DNA from: an uncultured Spirochaetales bacterium
GTDB taxonomy: Bacteria; Spirochaetota; Spirochaetia; Sphaerochaetales; Sphaerochaetaceae
Assembly (NCBI GenBank): GCA_949285785.1
Contig: CASEAG010000021.1
Span: forward strand, 1-55,905
Reading direction: 5' to 3'
DNA: 55,905 nucleotides
Shown: piece by piece, positions 7,290 through 14,324 of the stretch
How the letters are laid out: each line of letters starts with the position of its first letter
Numbering within the stretch: the stretch's first letter is position 1
Made by a program: the position numbers and the translations under genes
The notes under the pieces: model-generated
What the model was told of the DNA's origin: nothing
Databases searched by the model: none
Seen by the model: the letters and a program-made list of their open reading frames with translations, nothing else

Positions 7290-7318
7290 TTGAAACGGGG
7301 GGGGGTACGTGGTAGGCT
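7290..7318 (+). promoter_or_regulatory. Promoter with a poly-G tract in the spacer
   Basis: TTGAAA (7290-7295) and TAGGCT (7313-7318) are exactly 17 nt apart. The spacer contains nine consecutive G residues (7297-7305). The predicted start is near 7325, 30 nt before the lipoprotein ATG at 7355. The -35 is close to consensus; the -10 is weak. A homopolymer here would change promoter spacing with each slippage step. Confidence 0.5.
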
Positions 7319-7354
7319 AGGGACGAATTCCAATATTCATCAGGAGAGAAAAGC

Positions 7355-7840
7355 ATGAAAAGGACCGCTATGGCGTTTACTGTTCTTTCTTGTATCGTAT
7401 TCCTTCTTTTCGGCTGTGATGGGGAAAACGAAAAGCCGCAAGACGATATTCGGACTGTAGAGGTAAAGGTTGAGTTTCCAGCAGAGTTGAAAGGAACATA
7501 TGATGGAACAGATGGTACCGGAGACTCTGGAACAGTCATCATTTCCGAGAATGACTTCTCGGTGATGGGTGTATCCATGATCAATCTGCTGAATTCTACA
7601 ATCAAATCAAACGAAGCATATGCAAAGGAAAATGGATTGTCTTATGCCGTGTCATATGAGGCGACCAGTCCTGACTATGGAGAATACTCGTTATCGGTCA
7701 GACATGAAGTTGAAGGTTTGATCCATTTTGTTCTGTACTATTTCAAGTTGAATGATGATGGGACTGTAACAATGAGAACGAATGTCATCACATATGATGG
7801 TAGTACGACCGATGAGAAAATTGTTTTGACAAAACGATGA
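7355..7840 (+). CDS. Small lipoprotein, unknown function
   Basis: A 161-aa protein with a lipoprotein signal peptide: MKRTAMAF, hydrophobic core, lipobox LLFGC with Cys at about residue 21. The mature part begins with an acidic linker and then ELKGTYDGTDGTGDSGTV, a pattern seen in small lipocalin-like or META-like bacterial lipoproteins, though no family can be assigned. ATG 7355 has AGGAGAGA upstream. The promoter carries a nine-G tract, so expression may be phase variable. A strong hairpin shared with the convergent 897-aa lipoprotein gene lies downstream. Confidence 0.75.
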   Translation: MKRTAMAFTVLSCIVFLLFGCDGENEKPQDDIRTVEVKVEFPAELKGTYDGTDGTGDSGTVIISENDFSVMGVSMINLLNSTIKSNEAYAKENGLSYAVSYEATSPDYGEYSLSVRHEVEGLIHFVLYYFKLNDDGTVTMRTNVITYDGSTTDEKIVLTKR

Positions 7841-7928: not shown

Positions 7929-10622
7929 CTAGTAAAGCAGCTTTGTTATACCTTCCCCATCCGGGATGTTTGAATTGTCAAGATTGATTCCTTCTGTTCC
8001 CAAGATATCTGATGTGAAATCGACGGAATATGAACCACCTCGACCATTTACGACAATCGACTTGTAAATTATTGTCGCCTGCCCCTGGTTGTATGGAAGA
8101 TCGATGACAATGGACTGATTGTTTGTACTCACCGTATCAATTCCATCTTTTCCCAACGAGCCGGCCAAACCTGATTGAATGTTATACCACTCCAGATCGA
8201 TATTCCCATTTGATCTGATTTTGGATTCTCCTATCTGGTCAAGACTTGAAGTGGCGTTTATGCTCACACAGAAAGGATCGTCATCCAAGTCGGAATTGCA
8301 TGTAAAGGAGAATCCGTTTCTTGATTTTGTCTGTGCACGAGTCTTGAACCAGTCTCCTCCAAACTCTCCATCTGCCCACACGAATTCATCCCTCCACACT
8401 TTGTTTACAGCGTCAACCAGCTGTACGGCAGAGGTCACCGTTGCCCTGTAGACATCAAGCGTGATGGATTTGGCTTTTCCGGAAGCGTATCTTGGAGATG
8501 CTGTTATTTCAACGTTTCCGAATGCATCGTCAGTAAACGTGACGACACCTGTCTCGGAATCGACTGTTGCAATACCTTTTCCAGATGTGATGGAGTAGGT
8601 GAAATAGTCAAGGTCGTTCTCTGCCGTTGCGACAAGCTGAACTGTCCTGAGTTCGTCATCCGATGTCCTGGATGAGAATCTCGTCTTTCCGGAATCCGTG
8701 GCGAGGGTGACGACATCATAATCTGGCAGATTGTCCAGGTCGTCGACATAGTAGAGATTCAGACTTCCACTATAGGAATAGCCGTCCTCATCATAGACCT
8801 TCAGCATGAGGGACTGGAATGCCTTGTTCTGCGTGTTGTTGATTCCCGGCGTGTGTGGTGTAATCGTGACCTGTCTGGATGTAGAGACAGGATCGCTTCC
8901 ATAGTTGAGGTACCATTCATAACTCACGATGCCCTGGTCGGCAAGATCCTTCACTTCGATCACGACAGGATTGTCTGTAGTGAACACCTGATTCTGTCTG
9001 ATGCCTTCCATGATGTTATCCAGATCGACGGGACCTGGTTCGAATCCGATGGTGATGTTCGGATCAGCTGTGCTGATGTCTCCTGTCCAGTCGGATTCGG
9101 AATAGTTCGAACTAGAAGTGTGTATGGCCTTGACCATATACCTGTAGACGTTGCCAGTTGAAATGTCGGAGTCGATGAATGTAAATGTCTCACCTGAGAT
9201 AGAGAACCTGTTGTCATCGGAGCTTGCAATCATTTCCTGTCCACCGTTGTTCGTGATCCTGTACACCTCATATCTGTCTGCGATGTTGCAGTCCTGCCAG
9301 GTGAGTCTTATCGACGAATCCTCGAGTTCGTATTCCAGTTCTGGACGGACCAGCCTTACTGAGATGGACACGCTTGTGGTCCTGTTGCCATTGTTTGCCG
9401 TATAGCTCACAACTGTTGTCCCAAGGCCTGTTATGGTCAGAAGACCATTCTGATCTATTGAGGAAATGCTGGTGTCGGATGTCATCCATGTGCCACCGAG
9501 ATCTGTTGCATTGGATGGGTTGTATGACAGCGAGAACTGATACTTGTCGTTTGGAGAGAGCTCTGAGACGGCATCTGAATCGTAAACGAGCAGGACTGAA
9601 TCCAATGGGGTTGCCGTCTTGGCTGTTCTGACGAGCCCCGGTGAGATCTGTCCTGTCGTATGTTTCAGCCTCAATGTGAAACTGTATTCGGCGCTGCTGT
9701 TGAGCCCTGCGACCACGATTTCATAATTCTGACCGGCATAATCCTTGAGCTCGTCGTATGTTAACGGCTCTAGACTGGTCTGCGCTCCATTGCTGGAGTA
9801 GGTGATCTGTATCGAATCGAACTCGTATGCGGGGATTGCCACTTTAAGCGTAAGGCTGTTCAGCTCATTTACAGGCTTGATCTCGAAGTAATCGACATTC
9901 CTGGCGACATCGAATGATATGTTGGAATAGGGATCGTTCTCTGTCCCGTCGTTCTGGGATGAGACTGCGGTCTGGCCGGAATAGATGTTATAGACTTCTT
10001 CGACTGTCATTCCGACAAGCTCTCCTCCGCTGTAGAATTCGAGATGGAGATTCTGATCCAGTCCAGCCGGGACTTCAGCCTCGAACGTGACGGACCTGTC
10101 TTCCTTTATGACGACGCCCTTGGCGGATGCGATTGTATTGCTCTCTCTGTCGACGAGCCTGATCTCATCGAGCTGCATTCCATCCTGGAAGCTGAGGTTG
10201 ATTCTTACAGTGCCATACAGAGGCGTGTCCTCAATCTGGGCATCCGAAACAGGAGAGAGAATGACGGAGACCCTGTTTTCTCCGCTAGTCGTGAGTTGCA
10301 CGGATGCAGTTCCTCTTGCGATGATCACATTCCGGTCTGCAGAGGAATAACCATATACATTGATGGTATATGTGCCGAAGGGGACGTTTGTGAATACGAT
10401 TCCATTCGAGTCCTTGTCGAAGTCCTTGGAATCAAGCGTGCTGTTCGAAGAGACGAGCTGCGCCCTGTAGTATTCCGGTTCTACATAACCATCCGGCATG
10501 ACCGATCTGGTGTTCTGACCAGCCGCAGTAACAGCAATGCTTCCTGTGTTCTCGTATGCGAGAGAACACGAGCAAAGGACAATTCCAAGGAGTAGAATCA
10601 ATATCGAAATCGCTTTTTTCAT
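7929..10622 (-). CDS. Large surface-type lipoprotein with Ig-like and fibronectin-like domains
   Basis: An 897-aa protein with a lipoprotein signal (MKKAISILILLLGIVLCSC; the modified Cys is at 18 or 20). Visible parts are a beta-rich N-terminal region, a BIG2-like Ig domain at about 355-425 (SSIDQNGLLTITGLGTTVVSYTA), a fibronectin III-like repeat at about 430-510 (IRLTWQDCNIADRYEVYRI), a second BIG2-like stretch at about 690-730, and a C-terminal domain at about 740-880 with GGDWF and SIVIDLPY. That last domain recurs in the divergent 1162-aa protein. The start is ATG with AAGGG upstream. The protein is probably anchored in the outer membrane or at the surface. No enzymatic motif is seen. Confidence 0.85.
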   Translation of the reverse strand: MKKAISILILLLGIVLCSCSLAYENTGSIAVTAAGQNTRSVMPDGYVEPEYYRAQLVSSNSTLDSKDFDKDSNGIVFTNVPFGTYTINVYGYSSADRNVIIARGTASVQLTTSGENRVSVILSPVSDAQIEDTPLYGTVRINLSFQDGMQLDEIRLVDRESNTIASAKGVVIKEDRSVTFEAEVPAGLDQNLHLEFYSGGELVGMTVEEVYNIYSGQTAVSSQNDGTENDPYSNISFDVARNVDYFEIKPVNELNSLTLKVAIPAYEFDSIQITYSSNGAQTSLEPLTYDELKDYAGQNYEIVVAGLNSSAEYSFTLRLKHTTGQISPGLVRTAKTATPLDSVLLVYDSDAVSELSPNDKYQFSLSYNPSNATDLGGTWMTSDTSISSIDQNGLLTITGLGTTVVSYTANNGNRTTSVSISVRLVRPELEYELEDSSIRLTWQDCNIADRYEVYRITNNGGQEMIASSDDNRFSISGETFTFIDSDISTGNVYRYMVKAIHTSSSNYSESDWTGDISTADPNITIGFEPGPVDLDNIMEGIRQNQVFTTDNPVVIEVKDLADQGIVSYEWYLNYGSDPVSTSRQVTITPHTPGINNTQNKAFQSLMLKVYDEDGYSYSGSLNLYYVDDLDNLPDYDVVTLATDSGKTRFSSRTSDDELRTVQLVATAENDLDYFTYSITSGKGIATVDSETGVVTFTDDAFGNVEITASPRYASGKAKSITLDVYRATVTSAVQLVDAVNKVWRDEFVWADGEFGGDWFKTRAQTKSRNGFSFTCNSDLDDDPFCVSINATSSLDQIGESKIRSNGNIDLEWYNIQSGLAGSLGKDGIDTVSTNNQSIVIDLPYNQGQATIIYKSIVVNGRGGSYSVDFTSDILGTEGINLDNSNIPDGEGITKLLY

Positions 10623-10646
10623 GAGTTTCCCTTTTTAACGAACAGA

Positions 10647-10675
10647 ACAATAATAGATTGTTCAATAGTAATCAA
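10647..10675 (-). promoter_or_regulatory. Promoter for the 897-aa lipoprotein
   Basis: On the minus strand TTGATT (10675-10670) and TATTGT (10652-10647) are 17 nt apart, about 25 nt upstream of the start codon. The rest of the 213-nt divergent spacer is AT-rich. For the plus-strand operon a possible -10 TATACA lies near 10817, but its -35 (TTGAAC, 15 nt away) is poorly spaced. Confidence 0.5.
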
Positions 10676-10835
10676 CTGGTTGGTTTGCGATTGGTCAGAA
10701 AAGGTTCAAGAAATCCTTTTCACAATAAGGAATTATACACTTTGTTCGCTAAAATGGACAAAGAGACTTCATTTGTCAAAAAAAATTATAACCACTTGAA
10801 CAAGATTATATTTTCCTATACAAAACACATGTTTT

Positions 10836-13800
10836 ATGTTCGTTAGATTGAAAGGTGTGTTGATACTTCTGCTTGTTGCGATTCTTTCAGGCTGCTCATT
10901 GGCAGTCCTTCCCAACGAATATCAGGAGATACCGGTCTATCAGGAACCGAGTGCTCCAGGCGGCTTCATTGCAAACGTCGATTACGCGACAGGAAACATC
11001 GTTCTTGAATGGAATGCAGTCGAAGGTGCAAGTCATTACACGATCTATTACCAGACACTTGTCGAGCGGAACTCGAACGAGACACCTCATCATCTTATAG
11101 AGGCGGGTACGACGAAATCGATCGCCCTGTCTGCGCTTGAGGCCGACCAGATCTATTTCTTCCAGATATCTGCTTCCAACTCTTCGAACGGGTTTGAATC
11201 TGCCAAGAGTTCGAACATCGTCCTGTCGACCCTATCCACATTCACGATCTCCTTTTCCACTGTCGGCAGGTTCGCTTTCACTATTGGAATTGAGGAGATA
11301 AATTACAATTCCGTTCCGCTTGTGAGCCCGAGATTCACATTCGAGCTGTTCGAGGACCCGGATATGACCATAAAGGCAAAGGACGAGACGGGTGCCGAGT
11401 TCTCACTGATAGAGGTCGATTCTCCAAAGGAGTATTCCTTTGAACGTATACTGAAGTCGAATGCAACGTATTATTACAGAGCGGTGATGTACATCGGAGA
11501 TACTGCCGTACAGACGCGCACAGGTTCATTCTCGACGGCGGTGAGCAACATTGCACCTGCCGTACAGGAAGTCGTTGCCGTCAGCAATCTCAACGACCAG
11601 GTGCGAATCGACTTCAAGATTCCTGTCATCAATGGTGGACTGGAGAGCCAGGTAGATAGAAGACTCAGGGTTGTAAGGCGTCCAGTAGGGGGAGAATCTT
11701 CCGTTGTGTTCTCCGAAGAGAATGTTCTGGAGCAGGCCGATGGTGTCCTGACCATCAGAGAAAATGAGGATGGAACCCTTGACTGCTCGTTCTACGATAC
11801 GGATGTCGAATCCGGTGTTGAATATATCTACGAAATTGTCTCATGCTATTATTTCATTGCCGATGAAGTCGTTCAGAGCGGGTATTCTGTGGACACGGAA
11901 AGAGTGCATCCGTTGAGTGTTCCCCAGCTCATCAGCGATAAAGCGCCGACTTTGACTGTCCAGGATGAAGAGACGAAGCTGGAATACAAGTTCTCTATTC
12001 CCGTATATCTGCCGTTCGGACTTTCAGAGGGTTCATCATTTATTGTCACCTACAGGGATATCACAATTGAATCACCTTCAGATATATCAGTGGATCATGA
12101 AACTCAGGAAATTAGTCCAAACGTATATGAGCTGACCGGGATGATAAATCTCACGGAAGAAGAGGCTGAAACCAGTCATCAGTTCGTCTTCACCATCAGC
12201 CATAAGATAGGAGATGCCGAGTCCTCGGGAATCGAGACCCTTCCACTTATGACTCAATCTACACTAGAGAGCGACGAGGCCTTTTTCTCCGACTTCAAGG
12301 CCTCCGCCAATGAAGGGGAAGGAGTCATTCTAAGCTGGACTCGAGGTGATTCTATTCCAGCTGATGTCGTATTCACTCTTTACCGTTCGGAAGGGACGAC
12401 TGTCATAAGTGATGAGAACAAAGTGGCAGGGTTCTCAGCGGAGAACGACTCGTTCATAGATACTGGTGCAGTTCCTGGAGTCACTTACAACTACACGCTG
12501 AGAGCCGAGTCGAATGGTAGATTCACAATGGAGACAAGCCAGGGCAACAGGCTTGGAATCGTTGAAAAGTTGACAGCATCGCAGGGAGTATACAATGACA
12601 GGATTGTCGTCGAGTGGAACCCTGTGGCAAATGCAGCAGGATACAATGTCTATGCCGATGGTATTAAGGATGAGGTATACGATCCCAATGGCGATGGCAT
12701 ATGGACATACGAATATACCGATGTTTCAGATGCAGGCAGGTCGATTGAATTCTCTGTGAAGCCATTTGATGAGAGTGGAGACGAAGTAGATGATGGCAAT
12801 ACACTTGTCGTTGCCGGCAATATTCTTGGTCCATATGGCATGGAGGTCGAGGCATCCTCAGATCTTGCAGATGAGATTCTCGTGACCTGGAAGCCGATTG
12901 AAGGTGCCACCGGATATAACGTCAAGATATTCTATGAGTTATCTGATGGCACGACAGCTGCTCTGGACAGCATTGGAGAAAGAGTGGCCGGCTGTGAATA
13001 TAGACTGTCAAGCTCTGATACGAGACTTGATGCACTGTTGAGTGCTGAACTCGAAAACGGTGAAGGCTATCCACTTTCGAGATCATACATGTTCACTGTT
13101 ACGCCTGTTCATGACAGTACTTCATCGCGGAAATCAAGCGATAAAGTGGAAGGATCCTGGCTTCAGCCACCGAAGAATGTGATTGCGAGCAAGGCCGAAT
13201 ATGGAGGCATGATTGTAGTCAGCTGGGATTCCGTCGAAGGGGAGAACTATCTCTACAGAATCTACCGCCGTCCGGCTGATTCGGATTCTGACTGGGAGTA
13301 TTGCAATGTCGCATCAAATGGAAGCTCTGCTCAGATACTTTTCAAGCAGGGAGAGCCTGCTATCGAGTACGAGTATACGGTTGCAAGTAGCAGTGGTGGC
13401 AGTCTCGGTCCGGTTCAGAACTGCTTTCCGATAGTTGGGCAGAACGTAGGACTTCCGCTTTTCCCACCACAGAATGTCGCTGTGAGCCAAGGTGCATTCT
13501 CGGTTAAAGATGGTGGACTCGTCGATGAGATGCTCACAATCACATTTGATTCCAACGAATATGCCAAGAGTTATGTCATATCTGCTGGATCATATGAAAT
13601 TCCATACGAATTCGAAGTGAATGGAAACAGCCTTGTAGAAAAGAACGGGCAGAAGGGCTCAGGGCAAATTTCGAACGGGTTGGTCACATTAAACGTGCTT
13701 AGACCTACGATTCAAAGCGATACTTACCTTTCAGTAAGCGTAGCATGCAGAAACGAAGCTGGTTCCTTGTCTTCTTCAACTACTGTGGATATGGTACCTG

Positions 13801-14324
13801 TCAGATATTATCCGGTAGAGGTTGTCAATCTTGTTAATCCCTTGCTGTATAGGATTCTGCATGAGATTGACAGTAAATGGAGTGGAGATTGGTTTCCATA
13901 TAATTTTTTGGGATTGGGGCAAGATCGCTTTGTTTCCGATGAGACGTATTATGAGGCACAGAGTGCTTCGCCTGCTGCTGGCATTACAGATGCAGATGAC
14001 GCATGGGTCAGAATAAAATTGAATTATGAAGTTAATGGTACGGTGCTGCTTAAAGATAGTTCTCTTCATGGGACAGCTGGAAACAGATCAAATCCTAGTG
14101 CTACAAATCCTCTTGAGGCCATTCGTACTGATGAGGGGGAGGCAATCTCTGTAGAGCTTCCTTATTCAGGAGTGAACGCAAGAATAAGGTTTGATGGTAA
14201 TTTGAACTTGTCGAAGGACACTGGAACATATCTTGTCTGCATCGACTATAACGGCAATGGTAATTTTGACGATCAAGAAGAATATAGGGTCGACTATTCT
14301 GCGACTTACACGGAGCCGTTCTGA
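10836..14324 (+). CDS. Giant lipoprotein with fibronectin III-like repeats
   Basis: A 1162-aa protein starting MFVRLKGVLILLLVAILSGC, a clear lipoprotein signal with Cys at 20. The body repeats a fibronectin III signature in which a Trp strand is followed by GA..Y..Y: near residues 57 (LEWNAVEGASHYTIYY), 499, 592 (VEWNPVANAAGYNVY), 683 (VTWKPIEGATGYNVK) and 794 (VSWDSVEG). The last 160 residues (GDWFPYNF near 1017, ISVELPY near 1105) resemble the C-terminal domain of the divergent 897-aa lipoprotein. The Shine-Dalgarno is poor. It is the first gene of a four-gene operon and its TGA overlaps the next ATG. Likely surface exposed; function unknown. Confidence 0.85.
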   Translation: MFVRLKGVLILLLVAILSGCSLAVLPNEYQEIPVYQEPSAPGGFIANVDYATGNIVLEWNAVEGASHYTIYYQTLVERNSNETPHHLIEAGTTKSIALSALEADQIYFFQISASNSSNGFESAKSSNIVLSTLSTFTISFSTVGRFAFTIGIEEINYNSVPLVSPRFTFELFEDPDMTIKAKDETGAEFSLIEVDSPKEYSFERILKSNATYYYRAVMYIGDTAVQTRTGSFSTAVSNIAPAVQEVVAVSNLNDQVRIDFKIPVINGGLESQVDRRLRVVRRPVGGESSVVFSEENVLEQADGVLTIRENEDGTLDCSFYDTDVESGVEYIYEIVSCYYFIADEVVQSGYSVDTERVHPLSVPQLISDKAPTLTVQDEETKLEYKFSIPVYLPFGLSEGSSFIVTYRDITIESPSDISVDHETQEISPNVYELTGMINLTEEEAETSHQFVFTISHKIGDAESSGIETLPLMTQSTLESDEAFFSDFKASANEGEGVILSWTRGDSIPADVVFTLYRSEGTTVISDENKVAGFSAENDSFIDTGAVPGVTYNYTLRAESNGRFTMETSQGNRLGIVEKLTASQGVYNDRIVVEWNPVANAAGYNVYADGIKDEVYDPNGDGIWTYEYTDVSDAGRSIEFSVKPFDESGDEVDDGNTLVVAGNILGPYGMEVEASSDLADEILVTWKPIEGATGYNVKIFYELSDGTTAALDSIGERVAGCEYRLSSSDTRLDALLSAELENGEGYPLSRSYMFTVTPVHDSTSSRKSSDKVEGSWLQPPKNVIASKAEYGGMIVVSWDSVEGENYLYRIYRRPADSDSDWEYCNVASNGSSAQILFKQGEPAIEYEYTVASSSGGSLGPVQNCFPIVGQNVGLPLFPPQNVAVSQGAFSVKDGGLVDEMLTITFDSNEYAKSYVISAGSYEIPYEFEVNGNSLVEKNGQKGSGQISNGLVTLNVLRPTIQSDTYLSVSVACRNEAGSLSSSTTVDMVPVRYYPVEVVNLVNPLLYRILHEIDSKWSGDWFPYNFLGLGQDRFVSDETYYEAQSASPAAGITDADDAWVRIKLNYEVNGTVLLKDSSLHGTAGNRSNPSATNPLEAIRTDEGEAISVELPYSGVNARIRFDGNLNLSKDTGTYLVCIDYNGNGNFDDQEEYRVDYSATYTEPF

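Follow-up and report, generated by a model that had tools for sequence, protein, structure and literature searches.

Is the run of nine G's upstream of a small lipoprotein gene in an uncultured spirochaete a phase-variable switch? In spirochaetes, a few genes of Treponema pallidum are known to be switched by poly-G tracts in their promoters, and this is discussed as a form of immune evasion. The preliminary description of this DNA placed the run in the spacer of a promoter, at the optimal distance between the hexamers, and proposed that gain or loss of a G or two would detune the promoter. We considered this proposal in the window, by which we mean the whole 55,905-nt stretch of DNA that was analysed, and in related genomes. 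The window is contig C21 of a draft genome of 2.05 Mb (G000).

The focal promoter and its ortholog

The promoter and the gene have the following features.

7290 to 7295, + strand: −35 hexamer TTGAAA, which matches TTGACA at 5/6 positions and is kept in the promoter of the ortholog from genome G011
7296 to 7312, + strand: spacer of 17 nt, made up of C (7296), G9, and TACGTGG (7306–7312); the spacer is 14 nt in G011
7297 to 7305, + strand: poly-G tract (G9) within the promoter spacer, with G6 at the corresponding place in G011
7313 to 7318, + strand: −10 hexamer TAGGCT, a TANNNT sequence like those at the other tract promoters, kept in G011
7323 to 7328, + strand: predicted transcription start, placed from position alone, 5–10 nt 3′ of the −10 hexamer
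7342 to 7348, + strand: ribosome binding site AGGAGAG
7355 to 7840, + strand: gene for a lipoprotein of 161 amino acids, with the signal peptide at 7355–7414, the lipobox LFGC, and the lipid-bearing cysteine at codon 7415–7417

The two hexamers, the G9, and the 17-nt spacer are exactly as first described, and the ATG of the lipoprotein gene (at 7355) is 36 nt downstream of the −10 hexamer. In other words, a homopolymer of at least 7 nt (G9) lies between hexamers of the sigma-70 type, which were recognized by sequence only. The tract does not lie beside the start site, downstream of or over the −10 hexamer, as in promoters of the tprE/G/J type; instead, it is upstream of the predicted −10.

A strict scan of the window for sigma-70 promoters missed this site because TAGGCT matches TATAAT at just 3/6 positions. 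The weak −10 hexamer counts against our main reading. (TAGGCT is also the −10 of five other promoters with such a tract.) Taken alone, a G9 within this window is not surprising: words of eight G's were observed twice, versus 1.48 expected by chance.

The gene downstream (ORF 7355–7840) does encode a lipoprotein, as the preliminary description had it: the predicted signal peptide is MKRTAMAFTVLSCIVFLLFGC, which ends in LFGC. The signal peptide and the lipobox (LFGC here and LLGC in the ortholog) mark the gene as one for a predicted surface or envelope protein. A Pfam search with the 161-residue protein found no family, and a structure prediction for the mature lipoprotein from its single sequence was poor (mean pLDDT of 46). 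To call this protein a variable antigen is a guess. A threonine synthase gene lies beside the focal site; the closest named match to its protein is from an uncultured Spirochaetales genome (CALXKL010000002.1, 87% protein identity) and more distant matches are from Sphaerochaeta, so the focal family is probably Sphaerochaetaceae. Also beside the focal gene, at 7929–14324, two large and divergent genes encode lipoproteins in which Ig-like (Big_2) and fn3 domains occur, and these genes have no G tracts.

Among the 15 other genomes from the same genus, we found a clear ortholog of the focal gene only in G011 (67% identity). Its promoter is CTTGAAAC-G6-TAAATGA-TAGGCT, as compared to CTTGAAAC-G9-TACGTGG-TAGGCT at the focal site. 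Both promoters share the flanks TTGAAAC and TA-N5-TAGGCT, so the flanks are conserved while the length of the tract differs between relatives (G9 vs. G6). With the hexamers and the lengths of the flanks unchanged, the difference of three G's in the tract makes the spacing 17 nt in the focal promoter and 14 nt in G011. A distant match in another genome (G058; E = 7e-5) has no G tract upstream and was discarded.

Recurrence of tract promoters and variation in tract length

The focal genome has about a dozen promoters of this design, the focal one included, and 10 of its 19 runs of at least eight G's sit in such promoters ahead of lipoprotein genes. Searching this entire genome for TTGA[AC]-N(0-10)-G6 gave 18 overlapping matches, versus 0 for the reversed pattern. 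For other genomes, we used TTGAC-N(1-10)-G7, and again the counts take in overlapping matches, which inflates the targets and the reversed controls alike and makes P values computed from these counts too small. There were 57 matches (36 distinct tracts) in the 16 genomes of the focal genus (g1), versus 0 for the reversed pattern; 186 versus 2 in the 48 genomes of a sister genus (g31); and 452 versus 31 in the 85 genomes of another family (f18), which looks like Treponemataceae from its size and its prominence in the class. The remaining 75 genomes of the focal family had 58 matches versus 40. The excess therefore goes with certain lineages, and base composition alone does not account for it.

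The anatomy of the tract promoters was examined in 77 tracts from g1 and g31. In 66 of them, a TANNNT lies 13–20 nt from TTGACN, with a peak at spacings of 15–19 (7–17 of the 77 per position, versus about 1 further on). Most of these tracts abut the −10 (TTGACA-N7-9-Gn-TAGCCT), and the others abut the −35 (TTGAC-Gn-N8-9-TACTCT), which is the layout that the focal promoter resembles. In both layouts, the tract is always within the spacer. In f18, several tract promoters have a perfect TATAAT 3′ of the tract. The modal spacing is 16 in g1 and 18–19 in g31, which counts against our main reading as regards the "on" length. One lipoprotein gene (L240) is preceded by tandem poly-G promoters, TTGACA-G9-TAAAAAG-TTGACA-N8-G9-TAGATT.

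Tract lengths range from 6 to 16 and cluster at 8–10. Some of the differences are between copies with identical flanks. For example, four copies in G063 that share identical 35-nt flanks have tracts of 10, 9, 10, and 10 (L220, L221, L225, and L226); two copies in G058, also with identical 35-nt flanks, have 12 and 9 (L212 and L213); and neighbouring copies with identical 35-nt flanks in G347 (L301) have 8 and 9. Between species, the orthologs L282 and L176 (72% protein identity) have near-identical flanks and G6 versus G8. Another pair of orthologs, L177 and L196, has G8 in both species and nearly equal flanks, which we counted against our main reading. All of these are differences between copies and between species, rather than between cells of one population, and the genomes are single representatives of their species, mostly metagenome-assembled, so the homopolymer lengths may carry assembly errors.

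Might the length of the tract vary and yet act by moving a regulator's site or by changing the shape of the DNA, instead of through the spacing? Effects of this kind have been described for tpr promoters (tprE/G/J and tprL) and for opc (PMC7864442), and in g31 the modal spacings, 18–19, depart from the usual optimum. However, the tract is against the −35 in some promoters and against the −10 in others, and spacing alone is common to both layouts; we consider this explanation unlikely. We give somewhat less weight again to the idea that the tract is a fixed G-rich element, whose G run is read by a special sigma factor or by a regulator and is kept at one length by selection. The clustering of lengths at 8–10 would fit, as would the ortholog pair with equal lengths and nearly equal flanks, but the position of the tract relative to the hexamers varies, the lengths extend from 6 up to 16, and identically flanked copies are not of equal length. 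Finally, it is very improbable that a chance G9 fell near chance hexamers and that transcription really starts elsewhere: this would agree with the lack of excess G8 words in the window and with the strict scan that missed the site, but not with the conserved flanks in the ortholog or with the recurrence in the genome and across lineages, with almost no matches to the reversed controls.

Lipoprotein genes downstream of the tracts

Among the tracts that we fetched and that had an ORF downstream, 66 of 75 were followed by a lipoprotein gene, as compared to 12 of 178 background genes. The start codons for this count were chosen with some preference for lipoboxes, and were then re-used in a stricter test, so 66 of 75 may overestimate the true share somewhat. 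A count for g1 with start codons that were chosen without favouring lipoboxes gave a similar picture.

In the focal genome (G000), five tract promoters (L194, L195, L198, L199, and L201) are near-identical across the promoter, the leader, and the first 27–50 codons, while the remainders of their lipoproteins are unlike each other. The pattern suggests that the switch is a cassette that travels and is joined to different lipoprotein bodies. The focal gene itself does not have this cassette. In G058 and G063, contigs end near the tract promoter (L212, L213, L221, L225, and L226), as if a repeated cassette broke the assembly.

We noticed two other features of the proteins. First, the motif C-x(2-4)-[TN]P follows the lipid-bearing cysteine (as in CDDNTP or CSGDNP) in 25 of 32 lipoproteins with tracts from g1 (L173–L205), versus only 6 of 35 from g31; this is possibly a sorting or export signal. 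Second, in two cases (L004, at G000:C5:41619, and L039, at G011:C1:5196), a G9 is apparently in the coding frame near the N-terminus, and its length is the same in the two species; this may be a switch acting on translation, or it may be no more than a conserved Gly-Gly-Gly.

Proposed mechanism and comparison with known systems

The proposal that the spacer poly-G is a candidate phase-variable switch has gained from these comparisons: the ortholog has a different tract between the same flanks, the design recurs across the genome and across lineages, most tracts are followed by lipoprotein genes, and the tract varies in length between identically flanked copies. We think it quite probable that the focal G9 mediates phase variation by slipped-strand changes in promoter spacing, as in tp0126 of T. 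pallidum and porA of Neisseria meningitidis. The G9 would be a repeat prone to slippage, placed between the hexamers of a promoter of the sigma-70 type. If at least one G were gained or lost during replication, the separation of TTGAAA from TAGGCT would change (17 nt with G9, 14 nt with G6), which would alter the binding of RNA polymerase and hence the amount of the lipoprotein. The effect on transcription, via the focal −35 and −10, might be graded or on/off, and slippage would presumably be reversible within a population. If the tracts vary independently across about a dozen promoters, then the population would be a mixture of cells with different sets of lipoproteins. The benefit might be variation in antigens, in phage receptors, or in niche.

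We are more tentative about a broader scenario, to which we give a little less than an even chance: in the focal genus, its sister genus, and many genomes of the other family, a large number of lipoprotein genes would be under independent poly-G spacer switches, the switch would spread as a cassette in which promoter, leader, and signal peptide are attached to lipoprotein bodies unrelated to one another, and the few poly-G promoters of T. pallidum would be a remnant or a special case of a system that spans the lineage. That the same design is found at many lipoprotein promoters, in species known only from uncultured metagenome-assembled genomes, suggests that spirochaetes have long and widely used it to diversify their surface. 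In practice, TTGAC-N-G(7+)-TANNNT is a simple pattern for listing candidate switch genes, and the candidates can be checked without culturing, in metagenome reads that already exist. Searching the literature for phase variation in Sphaerochaeta yielded nothing, and our search, which did not cover most subscription journals, found no report of a genus-wide set of such promoters.

Among the known systems, the preliminary description had cited tpr genes, porA, and opc as parallels. The parallel with porA is sound, as the tract of that gene lies between the hexamers, while the tprE/G/J tract is beside the start site and the opc tract is over the −35; tp0126 is a better match than either. In T. pallidum, 76% of the 17 poly-G tracts tested vary in length (PMC7864442). 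The tract of tp0126 is between the −35 and the −10, and transcription is best at 17 nt (PMC7864442). Both cases involve a spirochaete, a promoter of the sigma-70 type with a G tract in its spacer, a gene for an envelope protein, and a spacing of 17 nt in one state. However, tp0126 encodes an OmpW homolog instead of a lipoprotein, and the focal promoter, as a candidate switch, belongs to a group of about a dozen similar ones in its genome. In meningococcal porA, the length of the spacer poly-G sets the distance between the −35 and the −10 (PMC7864442; PMC3639595), as we propose here, but porA encodes a proteobacterial porin and not a lipoprotein, and common descent is unlikely. The promoters of tprE/G/J, tprL, and opc also have a G or C tract in the promoter region of a surface gene, and its length affects transcription. 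In contrast to the focal site, their tracts are at the start site (which the tract adjoins in tprE/G/J) or over a hexamer (the −35 in opc), and the spacing is unchanged; tprL and opc do not work by spacing (PMC7864442). Overall, the comparison suggests that the focal site is of a known mechanistic type. More surprising is the scale: among the lipoprotein genes of uncultured spirochaetes, such promoters form a lineage-wide set.
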